From: Vigna angularis
Taxonomy: Eukaryota > Streptophyta > Magnoliopsida > Fabales > Fabaceae
NCBI RefSeq assembly: GCF_016808095.1
Contig: NC_068975.1
Coordinates: 18,421,501 to 18,485,500, forward strand
Reading direction: 5' to 3'
Length of the DNA: 64,000 bases
The notes beneath the pieces were generated by a model. It was not told the origin of the DNA and made no database searches. It worked only from the letters and a program-made list of their open reading frames with translations. Numbering within the stretch: the first letter of the stretch is position 1; every line of letters starts with the position of its first letter. Of this stretch, positions 28,416-48,269 are shown piece after piece. Position numbers and translations under genes: made by a program.

Positions 28416-29206
28416 CAATAAGTGTGTTACTGCCCAGAAGAACAGAGCTTGTGAAAAGGGTGGGACCATGCATACCATTATATTGATCACGATTCATGAA
28501 CATGTCATTCGCATGGTAAACCTTGATTACTTTTCTATCTTTTTCATATATAACTTATGTATTTTCTATTTTATATTCACTTCTAACTCCAAATTTTGTT
28601 ACAGTCAAAAGCGTTGGGACGGGCGGTCCATGTTGATGAGGTTTTTACATAGACTCATGTTCAGAAGGGAACTAGTTAATTCGTTGACGAAAGGTCTCGG
28701 AAGACTCATGTAAGCAAGTTGTTATTACTAGTAATGTGTTTCCTTATGTTATTGTATCATTCACTAACATTGCTTTTAATGTTTGAATAGGAAGATTTTT
28801 CTATGAGACTTTCACAAGTTAGATCCGAACATGGATCAACTCCTACACTGGATAATGTGAATAATGAAGACGACGACATCCGTATGACACAATGTTGGGT
28901 CGATGTCGTTGGTGGGAAAAGAAATGGACGAGTGTACGGTGTAGGACAACTTGCTACAAACTACATAGCAGAAAGAGGAGGTACTCTAAAACACCAACTT
29001 TCTTCTTCCACCACCATTGCTGACGAGAACGTTGTCCGCCTCAAGCAGAAACTAGAGTAACGTGACTAGGAATACTCTGATTTAAGACACGAGTTTACAA
29101 ACTTTAAACAATTGGTCATGAGATTGTTGCCTGAAGCTTCACAACTTAGTCTATCGTCCCTCTGAGCCAGCAACGACCCTCTCCATCACCCCATTCTAGA
29201 GCAGCC

Positions 29207-31707
29207 TGATACGACTGTCGCGGTCATACAAATTTGATGTGCAATTAAAAATGCAGTATAACTAGGAAGTGACACCTAGGTCGTCTCTCAAGGACCAATT
29301 TATGTGGTTCAGTCTTAGATTTTTGACACAAAGTGGGGGGGTTTATGGTGTTTTTGTGAATGCAATAAAATAAAATTGGAAATTAAATGAAAATACAAAA
29401 ACATTGAAGTAAATTTTAATAACGGTCAAAACTAAATGGTAAAGGACAGTAAAATCACAAACAGAAAATTACGCAGTGTTGAAATTTACCCAAAAACATC
29501 AGTAAAAAATAAATCATAAAAACGACGATGAAAATAACATGAAAAATAAAACATGATGACAAAATTTAACTACATAAAAAATAGTAAACGGTCAAATAAA
29601 ATAGACGGTAAAAACAAAAGTACCTTGAAAATCAAATTTATTTAACATTCAACATTAAATTAAAATTCCTGGACGGATAAAAAAATAAATGAACAAACTG
29701 ACACAGTACAGAAATTAAATTCTACATTTTTTTCTGAAAATGAGCAAGGACCTAAAGCTACTGGAACTCTCCTGAGCTTTTTCTACTCTACTAGAATGGA
29801 GGTAGTGAGGAGAGGAAGACTCCCCCAAAAAACCGTGCCCTTGCTGGAAATCTCGGTCCTCTCTTTATACACACACAACACCACTTTTTCAATCCAAATA
29901 ATGAGAGACATACTTGTCTCTGTGTGGCTTTCCCGTGAGTGTCTCCCAATACACTTTTTAAATTATTCTTCCATGAATAGCTTCTTTCATGGGCTAAAAA
30001 TAATGTAGGTAGGCCCTCCATTCTCGGTGCATCTACTTCAAACTTCCCTGTTCCTATTCAGCGTTTCTACCTTCGCATGTTGCACACCATTCTGGCCGTG
30101 GACTCCATCTTCAAGCCAAGAATCAACTCTTCTCTTTCGTAAACATGCTTTCCTTCCCAACTGCTGCCACCATTCCAGCCCTTCTTCTTTGCTGGACTCC
30201 ATATGAAGGTCTCTTCCCTACTGGACCGTGGGGATTGCTTTCCACACTGCTGGAACGTTAATTTTCTCTGCTGGATTGTGTCCATCTTCCTCCAAGCTGC
30301 TGGAATACCGTATGCTTTCCAATACTTGCTGGACCATGAGCTATTCAAGGGTGGCTGGACTGCTCCGTGAAGGCTGACCGTGATCTGCATCCAATATAAA
30401 TCTCGCATGCTACACCTCCACGCTGCTGCTCGGTGGTGGCTGCTACCTTTCTTACGGTGCTAGCTCCTCATTCCCGTGAACTCTAAACCAGTTGTTGCAC
30501 TCTCTTTTCATGGATGTGACAAAGCTGCATGCGGGGAGTGGCTGGTGTGCTTAAGGCCGTGTGGTGTATGAGTACCAAGAAGACCTCTGCAACTTGCCAT
30601 GTCTTTGTCCAAGGGAAAAAAAATATTGAATATTCTACTTCCTTTCTAGTAAATGAGTGACTCTTTCTTATCTTTTCGGTAGCTATGCTGACTCCTCTTT
30701 CTTCAAATAATTGTAGATGTGCCAAAAGCCATGAGGGCCCTCTTGTTTCTTATACAAGCCAAAATACAATTTAAAATGAATGCATGTGGGCCGTGACACC
30801 ACTTCATATTTCTATTGGATATAAGTGTTTCTTCAACAAAACCGTCAGCTTCATTAATGTGTGAAAGACGCCTTTATCCTTAGTGGCAGCTGTATGGGGC
30901 CGTGTGATGTGTTCCAAATAAGACTTTCATTGCAACAATTTGCACTTTCACGTGGACCCTTGCCAAATTTCTTTGCCCATTCCTTTTATTCCCATCTAGC
31001 ACTCTCATTTTGGAAATCCTCCCATGGCCGTGATGTCTCAAGAAGTGTGGTCCCTTTATTCCATTAATTTCCATGCTATTCTTTTACATTGCCATGGATT
31101 TGATTTCAATGTGGTTATGCTTTTCAATTTGGATTTGGACCGTGCACATACACTCACATGCTCCTCTACGTGAATCTTTGCCAACCATTCATACAAATGT
31201 TTCTCAATAAAATCGTGATGGCCACAACTTTGGTCACATGTATCCTTTGCTTGATGCTTTGTCAAATTAAATTTGCCTTATACACTTCATCATTGAACTG
31301 CAATGTATTGGCTTATCAAAATGAATAGCCACTTTCTTCAAAAGCCGTGAGTTGCATGATTTCCAAACCAACCAATATTACTTCTTGAAATGAGCTACAA
31401 AATGTACCAATATTTCACTTCAACTTTTCCATTTCAACACACAAACTAAATCAATACAGCGTAGCTTCTTTTAACAGAGTGTGTAAATGAATATTCTTCT
31501 AAATGTCCTAAAATATTTTCAGAATTTTCCCTGCATTCAATAACGTAAATAATTATTCTCAGATAATTCAAATTAAGTAAAATAAGAATTTCTGATCAAA
31601 GTAAGTACATTCAGTAAAAACGGGGAAATACTGGACAATTAAGCACAATTCCCTAATTAAATCTAGCACAATAAACTAAGTGCAGTGAAGAAAATAATGA
31701 TTCATCA
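29207..31707 (-). repeat. 3' LTR of the gag-only element
   Basis: This 2,501-bp LTR appears identical to 36617-39117 wherever I compared them (constant offset 7,410). The short ORFs within it are repeated exactly in the other LTR and have no recognisable domain. Confidence 0.95.
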
Positions 31708-31724
31708 AAATAGACCACACTTAG
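31708..31724 (-). other. Polypurine-like tract
   Basis: On the minus strand TTAAGTGTGGTCTATTT precedes the 3' LTR start TGATGAATC, which resembles the AAGTGTGG tracts of Athila elements. A second such tract is at about 33038-33055. Confidence 0.5.
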
Positions 31725-33303
31725 TCTTTTGCACTCCTGGGCAAAATTAAGACGCAAATCAGGGAATGGTTCAAATGACTTCAAAGGACTGACACAGACG
31801 CAACATACAGAAAATAAAGACTCACGAGAAAAATAAACCAAATTTACACAATTCTCAAGAATTCTAGACAGTTAAAAGAAGTAGAAATTATCCAACACAA
31901 ATCAAATAAAACAGATACTTACAGAAATCATCCAAACAATTCAATACACAGCAAAATGATTAATCAGTTCAAGAGGTGATTTAAAAATAACAAAACCTCA
32001 CAGATGCACTACATTGTTTCTCTCAAGTGTTTAAGGTAAATTAATGTCACTCAATGCACTCAAGAAAACAAACACAATTAGACTTGGCAAGCTTCTAATA
32101 TCAACACTTAAAACATATGCATGTTCAGATCTAAAGGTCTTTCAGGGTTGTAATGGGGCCAAGGACAGGGGAGGATAAATTTGGATAAGTGGCTATAGCT
32201 CAGAAGAAATAGAGGTGCACTAGGGAAAAAAAATGTAAACACAGTGAAATCTCACCCAAACCTCTAATTCAATCCTCTTCTCGACTCCATTATTCACAAA
32301 ATTATTTTTCAATTTTTTTCTCTTTTTCTCATCATTTTTTTTTATCCTGTCTTTTTTTATTTTTTATTTTTTTTATCACACAACAGGATATAAATTTTCA
32401 TTTCAAAACATGATGAGGAACCAACTAGCCAATTCATCAGAATTCCCAAGGAGACCACACTTATTCACAAAATACTCTTATAGCTCCAGACCTTCCTAAG
32501 GTTAAGGTAATCATTTGTTTTTCACTTAGGATCAGTGTATGAGCTTTAAACAAAGAAATGAATACAATATAGGCTCAAAAGGGGTATCAAAGGATAATAA
32601 CAAGGTAGGCTTATTTGGCTAAAGAGGCTCAAGAATAAAAATGCCTTTATCACGTCTGAACATGCATATAAATCAAGTATATCAAAAAGAATCAAGCCAA
32701 GGCATATGTGCAAGAAATCAAGAGTCATATCACACAAGAAAGAACATTAAGTGGCTCAAATCTCACACAGGGTATCCGTGTTATAATCAATTCAACCTCT
32801 TGAACACATAATCATCTTGCCAAGCAGAGAAAAGCAAGGATTTCAAACCATAAGTATTAAGTAAGTGAAGGAAAAATCTACAACTTAGAAATCATCCAGA
32901 AATCAAGTGAAAAATGTAAAATTTATTTCACACAAAACACACAAAAATAATCGTGAAACAGAAAAAATTTAACACTCAAAAACAAAAAATTTAACACACA
33001 AAATACATACTAACAGAAAAATCAGAATTTCTTCCCAGTAGACCACACTTAAATCACACAATGTCCTCAGTGTGTTACAATAATCAAATTATCAATTTCA
33101 GAGCAGTCAAATAATATAGACAAGTGCAATAAAAAGTAGGAAAAAGGGAAGAAATTTTCAGTAACATCCATCAGTAGATGTCTAAATCACCTAGCATCCA
33201 TCAGTAGATGCTAAATTTTTTTTTTTTTTTTTTTTTAATTTTTATATTTTTTTTTTAATTTTTTTTTTTTTTTTTCAGAAAAAGGAGATGACCGGCACTG
33301 TGA
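31725..33303 (-). other. Non-coding interior of the gag-only element
   Basis: No gene is seen. The stretch holds long T/A homopolymers (about 32330-32385 and 33208-33275) and two copies of the CATCCATCAGTAGATG motif (33168-33205). That motif is the reverse complement of the minisatellite at 17225-17700. Confidence 0.6.
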
Positions 33304-33336
33304 CAACAGTTTCGGTGGCAATGACCGAAACTGTTG
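33304..33336 (+). promoter_or_regulatory. Perfect 13-bp inverted repeat upstream of a TATA box
   Basis: CAACAGTTTCGGT (33304-33316) and its exact reverse complement ACCGAAACTGTTG (33324-33336) flank a 7-base spacer. The unit ends 22 bases before the TATA box. The arms contain CTGTTG/CAACAG, which fits the MYB core CNGTTR. An operator-like role is inference. Confidence 0.6.
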
Positions 33337-33358
33337 CTACAGTGGAAAGCAATCTGGC

Positions 33359-33366
33359 TATAAATA
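33359..33366 (+). promoter_or_regulatory. TATA box of the WOX-like gene
   Basis: TATAAATA lies in a locally GC-richer context. A CT-rich 5'UTR (CCTCTCTCTCTGCTCC) begins about 40-50 bases downstream, as expected for a plant core promoter. Confidence 0.65.
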
Positions 33367-33530
33367 GGCCATTATCGGCGTCTGAGCAGCATTTCCTGAC
33401 CTAGCCTCTCTCTCTGCTCCTCTCTTCCCTCTCTTCTCTCAGCATCAGGATCAGCAAGGAGCTCTGCCCCCGTGTGTCTCCGAAGGCGTCTGAATCCTCC
33501 GACGAGCTTCTCTAAGCCTTTCTTCTCCGG

Positions 33531-34114
33531 GTAAGACCTCTTTCCTTCCTTCTTTTCCTTCATTATTCTTCTTCACATCCCTCTTGCGCTTTCTTTGCTT
33601 ATGCTTCTCTTTTATGTATTATCAGCCTCTCTCCCTTTACTGCTTTCCTTTACAATTTTCTTTTCTGCATTACCTGCCCTCTCTCCCTGCCCCCTGTTAT
33701 TGCTTTCCTGCCCTTACTATTATTTTTGCATTTTTTTTTTTTAGCTTTTCCAGTTTTCTGCTTATTATTACGCACACTAAAAACAACTAAAAAAAATCAA
33801 ACTAAAATCAAAAAGAATGGACAAAACACTGGACCTAGATCCGTTAGGACCCTTTGCGAGGACCAGGACCTAAACATGGACAAAACAGATGGACCGAAAA
33901 CTGGAAAATGGACAAACCTGAGACAAGACACAGAAACATCAAAGACTCAGAGGACAAAATAAATAAATCTAAAAGGAAACAAGATCAAATAAAGAAAACA
34001 CAGAACTAATCTAAATTTTTTTTTTATGCTTTTTATTTTTCTGTTTGTTATTTTTTATTTTTTATGTTTTTATTCTTTTTATTTTTTGGTTTTTTTTTTT
34101 TTTTTATGTTTTAG
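33531..34114 (+). other. 5'UTR intron of the WOX-like gene
   Basis: The donor CCGG|GTAAGA at 33530/33531 and the acceptor TTTTAG at 34114, behind a long T tract, bound a 584-bp T-rich intron. The start codon lies three bases after the acceptor. Confidence 0.55.
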
Positions 34115-34117
34115 AAT

Positions 34118-34654
34118 ATGATGAGCGAGATGGAAATCGAGAGATACACCAGTCAGCGGTGGCGTCCTACCGAAGATCAGGTCAAGATGATGACCAACAT
34201 CTTCAACTATGGGGTTACCCATCCAAGCCGAGCGCAAGTCGTCGAGATCACGTCTCGACTGAGGACCTTCGGAGATGCCAGCGAATACAACGTGCACTGC
34301 TGGTTCAACAATCACGGCAATCGGGTCAGGCGCTGGCAAGCGGAGATAGACCCCACTGGCACTCAGTTTTCACAACTGCCGCTGTATATGTATGGTAAGA
34401 GCTCTCATCAGATCTCACTTTGATTGAATTTTTTTTTTTTTTTTATTATTAACAAGATTTTTTTTTTGTTGAAAGAAAATGGCTGGGTGGTAATGAGGGC
34501 ACCGAGGCTGCTGCATCTGTTTCCCATTCCTATCATAATCGATCCAGAAACAGAGATTCCTCCGCCTCCGCTCGTGACTTTTCGTACCAGAGCTCCCTCA
34601 ACAGAGCTCTCCCTTAGACCACCACAACCAGCTCGAGAATTCTTCCAGTTTTAA
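34118..34654 (+). CDS. WOX-like (WUSCHEL-related) homeodomain protein inside a retrotransposon
   Basis: Two exons, 34118-34394 and 34476-34654, are joined over an 81-bp GT-AG intron that keeps frame. They give 151 residues with no stop. Residues about 10-74 form a homeodomain with the WOX pattern: RWRPTEDQ, then a Gly-containing loop, PSRAQVVEITSRLRTFG, and helix 3 NVHCWFNNHGNRVRRW. The WF-N-H pattern and ITSRLR block fit the WUS clade. Helix-3 positions usually Q and K-A are changed to N and G-N. Exon 2 encodes LLHLFPI (about 104-110), close to the WUS-box T-L-x-L-F-P, and a tail with TELSLRP, a weak EAR-like motif. The expected role is a nuclear DNA-binding regulator. Function and expression are unknown. 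The gene runs opposite to gag and lies where pol would be. Confidence 0.75.
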
Positions 34655-34786
34655 TTTTTTTTTTTTTTTATTATGTGTTTTTATTTTATTTGGTCTGTAA
34701 TATTAACGATCATTACTGATCGAACACCGAACATCTTTTATTATGTTTTTATGTATTTTTGTTATATTTGCTTTTTTTTTTTAATT

Positions 34787-34792
34787 AATAAA
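34787..34792 (+). terminator. Poly(A) signal of the WOX-like gene
   Basis: AATAAA lies about 130 bases after the stop codon in AT-rich sequence, which suits a plant 3'UTR. Confidence 0.45.
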
Positions 34793-35296: not shown

Positions 35297-36217
35297 TCAT
35301 GGTGGCAATTGCCAAACTTGGACAAGCAGGGAGATGTTCTTCGCCTCAGGATCCAGCAAAGAAAATTTGAGGAAGAACTGCTTCATCAGTATTTTTCTCG
35401 TAGCAATTTGTTTCAGCAGTATCTCTCCTTCCACTAGCATTTGTCGAGTGTGTGACACCAGAATAGATTTCTCTAGCTCGCTCAAAGAAGTAGCAGTATA
35501 CTCTCCTTCATTAATTGTGCATTCCTTAATGTCAGCACCTGCATTCTCTTTTAACTCTGCATTCTTGTCATCAAACTCACATTTGATAGCATCAATCTCT
35601 AATTCATCAGCAGCATCCTCAGGGATATCAGTATCAGAATCCAGAATAGGCTCCTCAGGTTCTTCCTTTGCTACCTCAGTTGGACTTTCACCAGCCAGCT
35701 TGCAGAGCAACGTCCTCGCTTCTGTTGGGGTTATATCCATCAAACATCCACCAGAAGCTACATCCACAAGTATCCTTTCACTGTCCAGGAGCCCTTCATA
35801 AAAATAAATCAAGAGCAAATGCTCTGGAATTTGGTGGTTTGGACAAGTTGTGCAGAGTCTGTTAAACCTCTCCCAATAATCTGCTAGGCTTTCTTCTTGA
35901 AACTGCTCAATGGCAGTGATCTTCATCCTAATGCTGGTCACCTTTGCTGCTGGAAAGAACTTGTCGAAGAATTTTTGTTGTGTTTCCTGCCAATTATTAA
36001 AAGGATACTGGTATATGAACCAGTCTCTTGCTTCATCTTGCAGGGACATGGGAAACATTTTAATCAACACTGTCTCCTTGGAAACACCAGCAGGCCTCAT
36101 AGATAAACACACCAAACTAAACTCCTTGAGGTGCCTGTATGGATCTTCATGTGCCAACCCAAGGAATTTGGGAAGACACTTGACTAGATCATACATCCAA
36201 TCTTGAGAATCTGTCAT
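35297..36217 (-). CDS. Gag of the Athila/Tat-like element, intact
   Basis: A single open frame of 306 codons. The retrotransposon gag domain spans about residues 30-165: FPMSLQDEARDWFIYQYPF, WQETQQKFFDKFFPAAKV, then YWERFNRLCTTCPNHQIPEHL and DVASGG. This is the pattern of Athila/Tat capsid proteins. The C-terminal half is acidic (EEPEEPILDSDTD) and ends in QVWQLPP. No CCHC knuckle, protease or reverse transcriptase follows. It would form capsid-like particles, with enzymes supplied in trans. The ATG at 36217 lies about 375 bases from the primer site. Confidence 0.85.
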   Translation of the reverse strand: MTDSQDWMYDLVKCLPKFLGLAHEDPYRHLKEFSLVCLSMRPAGVSKETVLIKMFPMSLQDEARDWFIYQYPFNNWQETQQKFFDKFFPAAKVTSIRMKITAIEQFQEESLADYWERFNRLCTTCPNHQIPEHLLLIYFYEGLLDSERILVDVASGGCLMDITPTEARTLLCKLAGESPTEVAKEEPEEPILDSDTDIPEDAADELEIDAIKCEFDDKNAELKENAGADIKECTINEGEYTATSLSELEKSILVSHTRQMLVEGEILLKQIATRKILMKQFFLKFSLLDPEAKNISLLVQVWQLPP

Positions 36218-36592: not shown

Positions 36593-36610
36593 TCCCCGGC
36601 AACGGCGCCA
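36593..36610 (-). other. Primer-binding site, tRNA-Asp, 18 of 18 bases
   Basis: The plus strand reads TCCCCGGCAACGGCGCCA, identical to the 3' end of plant tRNA-Asp including CCA. It lies six bases from the 5' LTR at 36617. This fixes the element's orientation as minus. Confidence 0.9.
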
Positions 36611-36616
36611 AAAATT

Positions 36617-39117
36617 TGATACGACTGTCGCGGTCATACAAATTTGATGTGCAATTAAAAATGCAGTATAACTAGGAAGTGACACCTAGGTCGTCTCTCA
36701 AGGACCAATTTATGTGGTTCAGTCTTAGATTTTTGACACAAAGTGGGGGGGTTTATGGTGTTTTTGTGAATGCAATAAAATAAAATTGGAAATTAAATGA
36801 AAATACAAAAACATTGAAGTAAATTTTAATAACGGTCAAAACTAAATGGTAAAGGACAGTAAAATCACAAACAGAAAATTACGCAGTGTTGAAATTTACC
36901 CAAAAACATCAGTAAAAAATAAATCATAAAAACGACGATGAAAATAACATGAAAAATAAAACATGATGACAAAATTTAACTACATAAAAAATAGTAAACG
37001 GTCAAATAAAATAGACGGTAAAAACAAAAGTACCTTGAAAATCAAATTTATTTAACATTCAACATTAAATTAAAATTCCTGGACGGATAAAAAAATAAAT
37101 GAACAAACTGACACAGTACAGAAATTAAATTCTACATTTTTTTCTGAAAATGAGCAAGGACCTAAAGCTACTGGAACTCTCCTGAGCTTTTTCTACTCTA
37201 CTAGAATGGAGGTAGTGAGGAGAGGAAGACTCCCCCAAAAAACCGTGCCCTTGCTGGAAATCTCGGTCCTCTCTTTATACACACACAACACCACTTTTTC
37301 AATCCAAATAATGAGAGACATACTTGTCTCTGTGTGGCTTTCCCGTGAGTGTCTCCCAATACACTTTTTAAATTATTCTTCCATGAATAGCTTCTTTCAT
37401 GGGCTAAAAATAATGTAGGTAGGCCCTCCATTCTCGGTGCATCTACTTCAAACTTCCCTGTTCCTATTCAGCGTTTCTACCTTCGCATGTTGCACACCAT
37501 TCTGGCCGTGGACTCCATCTTCAAGCCAAGAATCAACTCTTCTCTTTCGTAAACATGCTTTCCTTCCCAACTGCTGCCACCATTCCAGCCCTTCTTCTTT
37601 GCTGGACTCCATATGAAGGTCTCTTCCCTACTGGACCGTGGGGATTGCTTTCCACACTGCTGGAACGTTAATTTTCTCTGCTGGATTGTGTCCATCTTCC
37701 TCCAAGCTGCTGGAATACCGTATGCTTTCCAATACTTGCTGGACCATGAGCTATTCAAGGGTGGCTGGACTGCTCCGTGAAGGCTGACCGTGATCTGCAT
37801 CCAATATAAATCTCGCATGCTACACCTCCACGCTGCTGCTCGGTGGTGGCTGCTACCTTTCTTACGGTGCTAGCTCCTCATTCCCGTGAACTCTAAACCA
37901 GTTGTTGCACTCTCTTTTCATGGATGTGACAAAGCTGCATGCGGGGAGTGGCTGGTGTGCTTAAGGCCGTGTGGTGTATGAGTACCAAGAAGACCTCTGC
38001 AACTTGCCATGTCTTTGTCCAAGGGAAAAAAAATATTGAATATTCTACTTCCTTTCTAGTAAATGAGTGACTCTTTCTTATCTTTTCGGTAGCTATGCTG
38101 ACTCCTCTTTCTTCAAATAATTGTAGATGTGCCAAAAGCCATGAGGGCCCTCTTGTTTCTTATACAAGCCAAAATACAATTTAAAATGAATGCATGTGGG
38201 CCGTGACACCACTTCATATTTCTATTGGATATAAGTGTTTCTTCAACAAAACCGTCAGCTTCATTAATGTGTGAAAGACGCCTTTATCCTTAGTGGCAGC
38301 TGTATGGGGCCGTGTGATGTGTTCCAAATAAGACTTTCATTGCAACAATTTGCACTTTCACGTGGACCCTTGCCAAATTTCTTTGCCCATTCCTTTTATT
38401 CCCATCTAGCACTCTCATTTTGGAAATCCTCCCATGGCCGTGATGTCTCAAGAAGTGTGGTCCCTTTATTCCATTAATTTCCATGCTATTCTTTTACATT
38501 GCCATGGATTTGATTTCAATGTGGTTATGCTTTTCAATTTGGATTTGGACCGTGCACATACACTCACATGCTCCTCTACGTGAATCTTTGCCAACCATTC
38601 ATACAAATGTTTCTCAATAAAATCGTGATGGCCACAACTTTGGTCACATGTATCCTTTGCTTGATGCTTTGTCAAATTAAATTTGCCTTATACACTTCAT
38701 CATTGAACTGCAATGTATTGGCTTATCAAAATGAATAGCCACTTTCTTCAAAAGCCGTGAGTTGCATGATTTCCAAACCAACCAATATTACTTCTTGAAA
38801 TGAGCTACAAAATGTACCAATATTTCACTTCAACTTTTCCATTTCAACACACAAACTAAATCAATACAGCGTAGCTTCTTTTAACAGAGTGTGTAAATGA
38901 ATATTCTTCTAAATGTCCTAAAATATTTTCAGAATTTTCCCTGCATTCAATAACGTAAATAATTATTCTCAGATAATTCAAATTAAGTAAAATAAGAATT
39001 TCTGATCAAAGTAAGTACATTCAGTAAAAACGGGGAAATACTGGACAATTAAGCACAATTCCCTAATTAAATCTAGCACAATAAACTAAGTGCAGTGAAG
39101 AAAATAATGATTCATCA
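36617..39117 (-). repeat. 5' LTR of the gag-only element
   Basis: This 2,501-bp LTR matches the 3' LTR at a constant offset. It contains several ACCGTG/GGCCGTG words and short ORFs without domains. Confidence 0.95.
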
Positions 39118-39589
39118 CAGCCCACATCAGTCTAGCCCACTCTAGTCTAATCCAGATCAGTGTAGCTCATAGTAGTCCAATTCACACTAGTCCAGCCACC
39201 TACACAAGAGTAGGATGTTGAAAACCATTCTGATGATGACTATGTAGATTATTAGTCTTCTTGTTATTATTGAACATAGTTGTTAATTAGAACATTATGA
39301 TTATGTTATATTACATTGCCTCATGTGTTTCAATCATATACTTTATTGGTGTAGATCATATAGTTTTATGTTTTATGTTTCATGCTTACTTTACAAATAC
39401 AAGTTCTTAAATTTGAACAATACAAATTCTATCATATTGTTTATTGATTAGACTATTCTGGGATGTATATTAATTATGCAGGTCTGTCTGTGTTGTGAAC
39501 ATTTTATGCAAGTTTGGGTTGTTGGATAACAAATACAATTGAACTCAACTTTGCTTGGTTGTTTTATATGGAACTATGAACGGTCTTTT

Positions 39590-41736: not shown

Positions 41737-43220
41737 TATGTGTGTGTGTTCATGTGGTTGATATTGTTAACTTAGATTTGTCTAGAACATTATTACTCTT
41801 AAAAGATTACTCAAATAGTAGTAGTTGTTATAGTTAAGAGTTTTGAATTAAAAAACATTTTAATTGGTAATACTTTGTTTAAACTTTAAAACATTTGAAT
41901 GTTTAAACCCGGTTGATCTAGAGCAATCTAATATGTTTGTAATCAAAGTGATTTTGTTTGAATTAAACAATAAAATTACAAAAACTCAAACAAATTCAAA
42001 ACAACATTCACAATTTTATTTAATGAATAATAAATTCACCCATACCCTATCCAAATACACCTGTCTTTGTCCCTGCGTGCTTCATTGAATAATTGTATGT
42101 ATTTTGTTTAGTACTAATTAACAAATTATTATAAAGTTTTGATATATAAATATCGTAATTCTAATATAGTCACTTAGCTATCTGTCTGAAAAGAGCATTC
42201 ATACACCACTCAGAAAATTGTACCCATTATGGAAGACTACTAATAAATAGATTAGCAAAGATTATATATTCACATATTTTATTTTTATTTAGGGTATCCA
42301 TTAAATAAAAATAAATAAAGTAATCGACAAAATATTACTTTATAACAAATCAATAAATTTAATACAACAATATTCTATTTTTTCTTAAAAATAGAAAAAC
42401 CAAAATCATTTATTAGTTGTTTTTATTTTAAATATAAAAGTAATAAATATTGAAAACTTCACTTATATAACATACTATGTTTGATTTAAATTTTGTATAT
42501 ACTTTGAAATAGCTTGTATTCTCATATCAGTATGATATTATACTATTTAATAGTTTTTGTATTATAGTGTGTTATTAATGTTTGGTTCAAAGAGTGCTTA
42601 CTCGATGGTGTTTTATTCTTTAAGAACTCTTACGTCAATACGTCAATCACTATTCTTCAACAAGAAAAATCTATTCAATAATGAAGCTTCTTTGGTTACG
42701 ATATTTTCTGAAGTAAAGGAATATCCATATCACGTTCTACTGCCCTTTTTCTTCTCTCACTACTGTTCTTATTCTTCTTGTGATGCACCATCTATCTCAT
42801 TCACCAACCTCACCACTTTTCACAAGTGATGTGTCTCCTTTACTCTACCAAGTCTTGTTTATTGCTTCCTGTGTTGTGGCTATGAAAAGAAGTGAAAGAC
42901 TACCTCAGACAAAAGAGTGAGAGCATTAGATTCCATAGTTTTGGTTTCTTGTAATTCAAGTGCAGTTTGTAACTTAGTTATTTTTTGTGTTCAATCGTGT
43001 GTTATGCTTACTAAACTACTTTCTGGTGTTGTTTGTGCTTGCATACCGGAGACTCCAATGCTTAGGATCGTAGCTTCCCATGTTTGTTAAGAATTTGGTG
43101 CTGTGTCTATTCTTTTGTGGTTGACTTTGTAAACATGTCTGTGTAAAACATGTTTTCTTGCCAATTATATACCTTGATTCTTATATAGGATCCTCTGTCA
43201 CAGGTTGTTGTGTTAACAAC
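40341..43220. other. Intergenic region upstream of the ABC transporter
   Basis: AT-rich, without convincing genes. The small ORFs at 40671-40946, 41167-41352 and 42557-42829 have no domain I recognise. The last 350 bases (about 42840-43190) are less AT-rich and pyrimidine-tract-containing, so they could be 5'UTR or an untranslated exon. An acceptor-like CTCTGTCACAG lies at about 43193-43203. Confidence 0.5.
41703..41734. repeat. (TA)n microsatellite
   Basis: About 16 uninterrupted TA units are followed by a short TG run. Confidence 0.95.

Positions 43221-48269
<5,049 letters not shown>

Follow-up and report, generated by a model that had tools for sequence, protein, structure and literature searches.

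An amplified homeobox gene of the WUSCHEL-related family, antisense to gag in an LTR retrotransposon of adzuki bean, under selection at the protein level

The window examined here, that is, the whole stretch of 64,000 nucleotides of Vigna angularis DNA (NC_068975.1, positions 18,421,501 to 18,485,500), contains an LTR retrotransposon that carries an intron-bearing homeobox gene between its LTRs, on the strand opposite to gag. This gene is real, amplified, old and selected at the protein level. The phenomenon is partly known from other species of Vigna; what is new here is the antisense anatomy, the age, the constraint on the protein and the evidence on the donor. The account that we favour, and consider probable, is that a gag-only, Athila-like element lineage acquired a WUS-clade-like gene, intron included, in the antisense direction and has kept it as a transcription factor that the element encodes.

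Anatomy of the element and its gene

The features are located in the window as follows.

29202..29206, no strand: left copy of the target site duplication CAGCC, identical to the right copy
29207..31707, minus strand: 3' LTR, 100% identity to 36617-39117 over 2501 bp, TG...CA ends
33359..33366, plus strand: TATA box TATAAATA, recurring before the splice donor in type-A copies and in the type-D copy L060
33531..34114, plus strand: putative 5'UTR intron, GGG/GTAAGAC ... TTTTAG/AATATG, with conserved donor and acceptor motifs in the type-A copies
34118..34394, plus strand: coding exon 1 (homeodomain); basis: open reading frame, predicted splicing, Pfam and PDB matches
34395..34475, plus strand: coding intron, 81 bp, GT-AG, phase 1; position and phase shared by types A, B, C and D
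34476..34654, plus strand: coding exon 2 (LLHLFPI, C-terminal ELSLRP), stop codon at 34652-34654
34787..34792, plus strand: AATAAA, possible poly(A) signal, read in the sequence
35297..36217, minus strand: gag ORF, 306 aa, PF03732, E 3.2e-15
36594..36610, minus strand: primer binding site TGGCGCCGTTGCCGGGG, read in the sequence
36617..39117, minus strand: 5' LTR, 100% identity to 29207-31707 over 2501 bp
39118..39122, no strand: right copy of CAGCC, a 5-bp target duplication

Paired LTRs (2501 bp each, 100% identical in the window copy), a target duplication, a primer binding site and gag are all present, which identifies the element as an LTR retrotransposon; the full identity of the two LTRs, with CAGCC on either side, marks the insertion of the window copy as recent. 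The element is oriented along the minus strand and the homeobox gene along the plus strand, antisense to gag, and no pol-like ORF was found between the LTRs among the listed ORFs of at least 100 aa. The primer binding site TGGCGCCGTTGCCGGGG matches what we take to be the complement of the 3' end of plant tRNA-Asp; together with gag, this is only suggestive of membership of the pol-less element in the Athila lineage. The elements that we take to form the Athila-like Ty3/gypsy and the TR-GAG-like non-autonomous, gag-only classes resemble the adzuki element in the gag family, the tRNA-Asp-type primer binding site and the long LTRs, whereas the latter is without pol, without a sense env-like ORF, and with an antisense homeobox gene. 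Elsewhere in the genome, gag matches of about 51% identity lie within open frames that reach about 1,900 aa.

The window gag has 306 aa, whereas most close relatives have longer open frames, of 417-453 aa, with extra sequence near residue 209. Each LTR includes, on the strand of the element, an ORF of 113 aa (37477-37818 and 30067-30408) with no Pfam match, and the LTRs of some other copies hold a different, 169-aa ORF. The sequence GACCACACTTA adjoins the 3' LTR at 31713, the polypurine tract position, and recurs twice more inside the element, at 32453 and 33041. A 635-aa ORF at 43158-45065, by eye an ABC transporter of the multidrug-resistance-associated type, is likely a host gene close to the insertion.

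The two coding exons of the homeobox gene yield a predicted spliced product of 151 residues. A TATA motif followed 173-234 nt on by a GTAAG-type donor was detected in 26 of the 29 type-A copies, in one of seven type-C copies, and in L060, the single type-D copy with sufficient upstream DNA, by a loose motif scan without a chance control. The 5'UTR donor of the type-A copies is mostly CAGGTAAGT, with the acceptor directly before the ATG; the window copy is slightly atypical in having a weaker 5'UTR donor than most copies and an H in the LFP box, where most copies have D. In several type C/D copies (L047, L048, L052, L055-L060 and L075), a palindrome, AGTCTCCT..AGGAGACT, overlaps the stop codon; it is not present in the window.

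The window protein matches the Pfam Homeodomain (PF00046) with an E-value of 2.2e-6 and a score of 27.8 bits (cut-off 22.9), and its closest PDB sequences are WUSCHEL (2.7e-11) and STENOFOLIA (3.6e-11); these matches rule out a chance homeodomain. The same Pfam domain was detected in all 13 representative element proteins. A structure model of P0002, a V. angularis relative of 151 aa that is 95% identical to the window protein, has a mean pLDDT of 66, with values above 90 across most of the homeodomain and low confidence in the remainder, and produced its best fold matches with the STENOFOLIA and WUS homeodomains on DNA. Relative to TLxLFP, which we assume to be the WUS box consensus, the LLHLFPI of exon 2 is without the T, which is present in the TLDLFPIPP of type D L060. 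Part of the WUS clade presumably carries a C-terminal EAR-like LxLxL motif, of which the window ELSLRP is without the last L; types C and D carry LSLRL or LTLRL in this place. At homeodomain positions 47 and 53 (numbered by what we take to be the usual convention), C and G, respectively, are invariant in the 13-row alignment, unlike in the host WUS-clade loci; Y47 is retained in L050, a locus not included in that alignment. The combination of the homeodomain, the LFP box and, in types C and D, LxLxL suggests, by analogy with the biology of WUS, a DNA-binding repressor.

The earlier note on this DNA had described a homeobox gene of the WOX pattern with an in-frame 81-bp GT-AG intron and a WUS-box-like LLHLFPI motif, located between the LTRs of one element, opposite gag and in the place of pol, and furnished with a TATA box, a 5'UTR intron and a poly(A) signal as an apparently self-contained gene; it had also proposed a homeodomain HMM search. 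The anatomy, the phase-1 intron, the position of the motif in exon 2, the signals and the outcome of the Pfam search described above all bear out this description.

Copies, types and constraint on the codons

A protein search with exon 1 (150 of 625 candidates scored; the query included 9 intron-coded residues) produced 142 matches without a stop codon and 8 with one among the 150 listed. A 26-base degenerate motif for the recognition helix of type A/B occurs exactly at 429 places in the genome (211 forward, 218 reverse), compared to 0 places for the reversed control. With a type-D query (150 of 700 candidates scored), at least 38 exon-1 matches were obtained at ≥64% identity, 26 of them without and 12 with a stop. 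The 150 listed exon-1 matches and the 429 motif places rule out a chance insertion confined to one copy; the further copies for which the earlier note had recommended a search are thus present in large numbers.

Types A/B, C and D have in common the phase-1 intron, the homeodomain, the LFP box and a C-terminal ELSLR/ELTLR. A spliced open frame with the LFP motif was recovered by a script in 42 of the 51 non-host loci. Among the loci that the script missed, L004 (FFP in the box) and L059 (LFL) are open, as are L075 and L076 when spliced by hand; in L051, both exons are open and the acceptor is unclear, and L050, L053 and L078 are damaged. In L054, a type-C homeodomain continues in frame into an integrase-like stretch (VDYFTKWVEAEP). 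Type D L060, which reads RWSPTREQ..., TLDLFPIPP and VELTLRL, appears by eye to be the element type nearest to ordinary WUS-clade genes.

The gene travels with the element. When 77 gag matches with an identity of 68% or more were compared with 290 listed WOX exon places, at least 44 of the 77 had a convergent WOX exon no more than 4.5 kb away (median about 2.05 kb), 33 had no nearby WOX exon among those listed, and none had one in any other arrangement. A non-coding internal probe (40 scored matches of 749 candidates) gave a similar picture: in a comparison with a hand-picked set of 47 nearby WOX places, at least 28 of the 40 scored copies had a listed exon no more than 6 kb away, on the side where it was expected, and the other 12 had no nearby WOX exon among those listed. 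In 8 of the 10 fetched 10-kb regions, as in the window, the LTR pair could be delineated, with 99.3-100% identity; L064 and L068 showed no such pair within the 10-kb stretch examined. The LTRs of the fetched copies have mainly their ends in common with those of the window. The window-type gag covers more than 600 bp in L065, L066 and L069; six of the other seven regions, that is, all except L068, contain a gag-like ORF (by eye) of 458-512 aa, and no longer ORF was found in these regions. Several type-A series show an even spacing of 8-9 kb, as if tandem elements shared LTRs (G000:C6:890918-917686, C9:14399964-14416514 and C6:1947059-1972123).

The element homeobox protein is under purifying selection, clearly so in four of the five sets of sequences analysed, type C being the exception. 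Omega was estimated at 0.145 for 28 A/B/B2 sequences (lnL -2128.1 vs -2249.6 at omega 1), at 0.209 for 5 A/B representatives, at 0.267 for 12 representatives of all types and at 0.341 for 3 type-D sequences, and in the latter three cases, too, omega fixed at 1 with kappa unchanged gave a much poorer fit; for type C alone (n=5), omega was 0.651, not distinguishable from 1 (lnL -948.1 vs -949.7). The earlier note had called for such an estimate among copies, and outside type C omega lies well below 1; given the homeodomain hit and the many copies as well, the outcomes that the note had named as refuting it and that were checked did not occur. Nei-Gojobori means were dN 0.016 and dS 0.155 for A-A pairs and dN 0.103 and dS 1.03 for A-B2 pairs; for A-D, dS was saturated in all 58 of 58 pairs. 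Most copies came from searches by protein similarity, and the within-A omega is lowered because the type-A loci were the 30 best-scoring protein matches; the between-type figures are less affected by this selection. Across 29 type-A copies, the differences per site and indels per kb, respectively, amount to 0.025 and 0 in exon 1, 0.069 and 2.6 in exon 2, 0.098 and 30.8 in the coding intron, 0.228 and 35.2 in the 5'UTR exon, 0.242 and 25.4 in the 5'UTR intron, and 0.321 and 36.7 in the 3' flank.

Origin of the gene and competing readings

In 6 of the 11 host WUS-clade loci (L031, L032, L033, L034, L037 and L040), a phase-1 donor candidate, called by motif only, follows the homeodomain, 70-142 nt past the WFQNH codons. 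The element intron lies at offset 79-88, in phase 1, and the candidate of the WOX5-like locus L040 is at 88, the same as in types C and D. The host WOX3/WOX4-like loci have phase-0 candidates, the WOX2-like loci have nothing convincing, and in the WOX8/9-like loci the sequence continues without such an intron over the stretch examined; the WUS, STF and WOX2-9 labels of host loci are our own, assigned from signatures. By homeodomain score, types D1 and D2 are closest to the WOX2-like L039, and types A and B2 to the WOX2-like L036. From the phase-1 donor candidates and these scores, we judge it likely that a WUS-clade-like gene was captured together with its intron. Host WUS-clade WOX genes (WUS, STF/WOX1, WOX2 and WOX5) resemble the element genes in the homeodomain, the LFP box and the LxLxL (types C and D), and several of them also in the phase-1 intron after the homeodomain; the element proteins differ from them in a linker of half the size, in changed recognition-helix positions and in the presence of hundreds of copies within elements.

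Capture of a processed mRNA is ruled out by the retention of both introns, the coding one with a host-like phase; the earlier note had argued this from the retained introns, and the phase-1 candidates in the host loci strengthen its case. Its assignment of the gene to the WUS clade holds in part: type D and the box motifs favour it, whereas the window homeodomain alone, the homeodomain tree and the position of type C nearest to WOX8/9-like genes do not. In that tree, the elements group to one side of a weakly supported branch (75/96), outside the host WUS clade; naming a donor from the tree was abandoned because the homeodomain is too short and the support weak. A WOX8/9-like or mixed host origin, or several captures instead of one from the WUS clade, would account for the type C homeodomains scoring best against host WOX8/9-like genes (C1_P0051 scores 181, vs at most 147 for WUS-clade genes). 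We regard this as unlikely, given that the phase-1 intron, the LFP box and the C-terminal motif are common to all types, that no such intron was seen in the stretch examined of the host WOX8/9-like loci, and that the elements lie, if weakly, on one side of the branch.

The constraint itself might be an artefact of the choice of intact copies, of recent bursts or of gene conversion, with the gene a passenger that is merely copied along. The use of the best 30 hits of a protein search, the youth of many copies, as judged by their LTR pairs, and the type C omega would fit such a scenario, yet omega stays at 0.209 and 0.267 in the comparisons between types, where recent bursts matter least; the reading frame, the phase of the intron and the motifs are retained across the saturated A-D distance; and indels are lacking in the exons but frequent in the neighbouring intron and flanking DNA of these copies, so that we give the passenger scenario little credence. 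Points against the explanation that we prefer are the stop codons in 8 of the 150 listed exon-1 matches and 12 of the 38 type-D-like matches, and the damaged or chimeric loci L050, L053, L078 and L054, together with the type C omega, the homeodomain tree, the incomplete box and LxLxL motifs of the window protein, and the gag and probe matches for which no WOX exon is listed nearby. If, instead, the gene served the plant, for example, in the meristem or under stress, and the element dispersed it as a family of host genes, one would not expect hundreds of near-equal copies within elements, the lack of a non-element single-copy orthologue of these types among the matches listed, or a homeodomain changed relative to the host WUS-clade loci (G53 in all aligned element types, C47 in all but L050). 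The protein is host-like, and a paragraph of PMC10714607 on amplified WOX genes in salt-tolerant Vigna, where their contribution is given as unknown, includes a remark on coastal adaptation of V. marina and V. riukiuensis that hints at a role in the plant; even so, a host-directed function appears very unlikely. It is highly improbable, too, that the antisense transcript and not the protein is what matters, by pairing with the genomic RNA and tuning silencing, as proposed for antisense aORFs in a part of PMC7264820: the promoter is conserved, but the constraint is on codons and the reading frame, not on the transcribed intron and UTR.

Related elements and a possible role of the protein

Among the reports found in a literature search for similar cases, LTR-borne WOX amplification is described only in PMC10714607 (Naito), in a paragraph on V. 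marina and V. riukiuensis, where WOX genes that lie between identical LTRs, with target duplications, have multiplied, to more than 1000 copies in V. riukiuensis. Compared by description, this system and the adzuki element are alike in the WOX gene, identical LTRs, target duplications, high copy number and genus; the paragraph concerns species other than adzuki and does not include orientation, introns, gag, types, selection or origin. An expansion of WUSCHEL-related homeobox genes is also on record for V. reflexo-pilosa, a related Vigna, but the passage that reports it (PMC10357499) draws no link to a retrotransposon.

The closest structural parallels are the antisense aORF-3R genes of Ty3/gypsy elements that are listed in the relevant parts of PMC7264820 and PMC4093653, namely, maize Grande gene23, rice RIRE2, Silene Retand and bean pvRetro13 ORF2, in which, as in the adzuki element, the gene is opposite gag and before the 3' LTR. 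In those elements, as described there, the ORF lies between pol and the 3' LTR, whereas the adzuki element, with its antisense and conserved gene, has no pol. The aORF products are presented in PMC7264820 as having no clear protein relatives and unknown functions, in contrast to the recognisable homeodomain protein and the host-type intron of the adzuki gene; for the Grande aORF, an own promoter and a nuclear product are described, compared to sequence signals only in adzuki. An ORF2/SMC-type antisense protein like that of pvRetro13 was considered for the window and not taken further; a homeodomain is present and no such domain match was obtained.

Under the account that we favour, we infer that an Athila-like Ty3/gypsy lineage, which would now retain gag alone and use pol supplied from elsewhere, took up in antisense a short, intron-bearing gene of the WUS-clade kind, with the homeodomain, LFP box and C-terminal LxLxL in this order. 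The gene would have stayed with the lineage for long enough to diverge into types whose silent sites are saturated, with purifying selection holding the protein. Antisense placement would protect introns before reverse transcription, and the retained introns agree with this: the genomic RNA would carry the reverse complement of the splice sites, and no sense ones, so that the introns would not be lost when the element replicates. With transcription from a TATA promoter of its own, and with one intron removed from the 5'UTR and another from behind the homeodomain, the gene would give rise to a small, nuclear, repressor-like homeodomain protein that favours the element, via the element's own LTR or by moving host cells toward a permissive meristem or germline state.

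The starts of the LTRs of 10 related copies contain TAAT at 11.5 vs 6.1 per 200 nt (L064, where the LTR edge was misplaced, was left out of 11); in the window LTR start, the values are 8.0 vs 6.0, a level reached by 49 of 200 shuffles and not significant, and TGAATGAA and CACGTG are absent from the LTR starts examined. Enrichment of WUS sites in the LTR starts is therefore only a lead. A more specific reading, which we put forward tentatively and consider rather doubtful, is that the element protein, with its altered recognition residues, binds the TAAT-rich starts of its own LTRs and/or induces a stem-cell-like or germline-permissive state, and has been selected for this over millions of years; an element with a WUS-type protein would then be a plant counterpart of a retrovirus with a cellular transcription factor.

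Relatives of the protein are found in the protein records of V. radiata (P0066) and V. umbellata (P0068 and P0074); if these are element-borne, the capture predates the split of these species. The 60 hits of the first protein search all carry V. angularis names. For annotation, the hundreds of copies call for caution, since adzuki gene sets list them as WOX genes or as hypothetical proteins, and they can give rise to false WOX family expansions. For the biology of the elements, a readable homeodomain product, from the WUSCHEL-related family that controls stem cells, makes the role that antisense extra genes play for an element directly testable.
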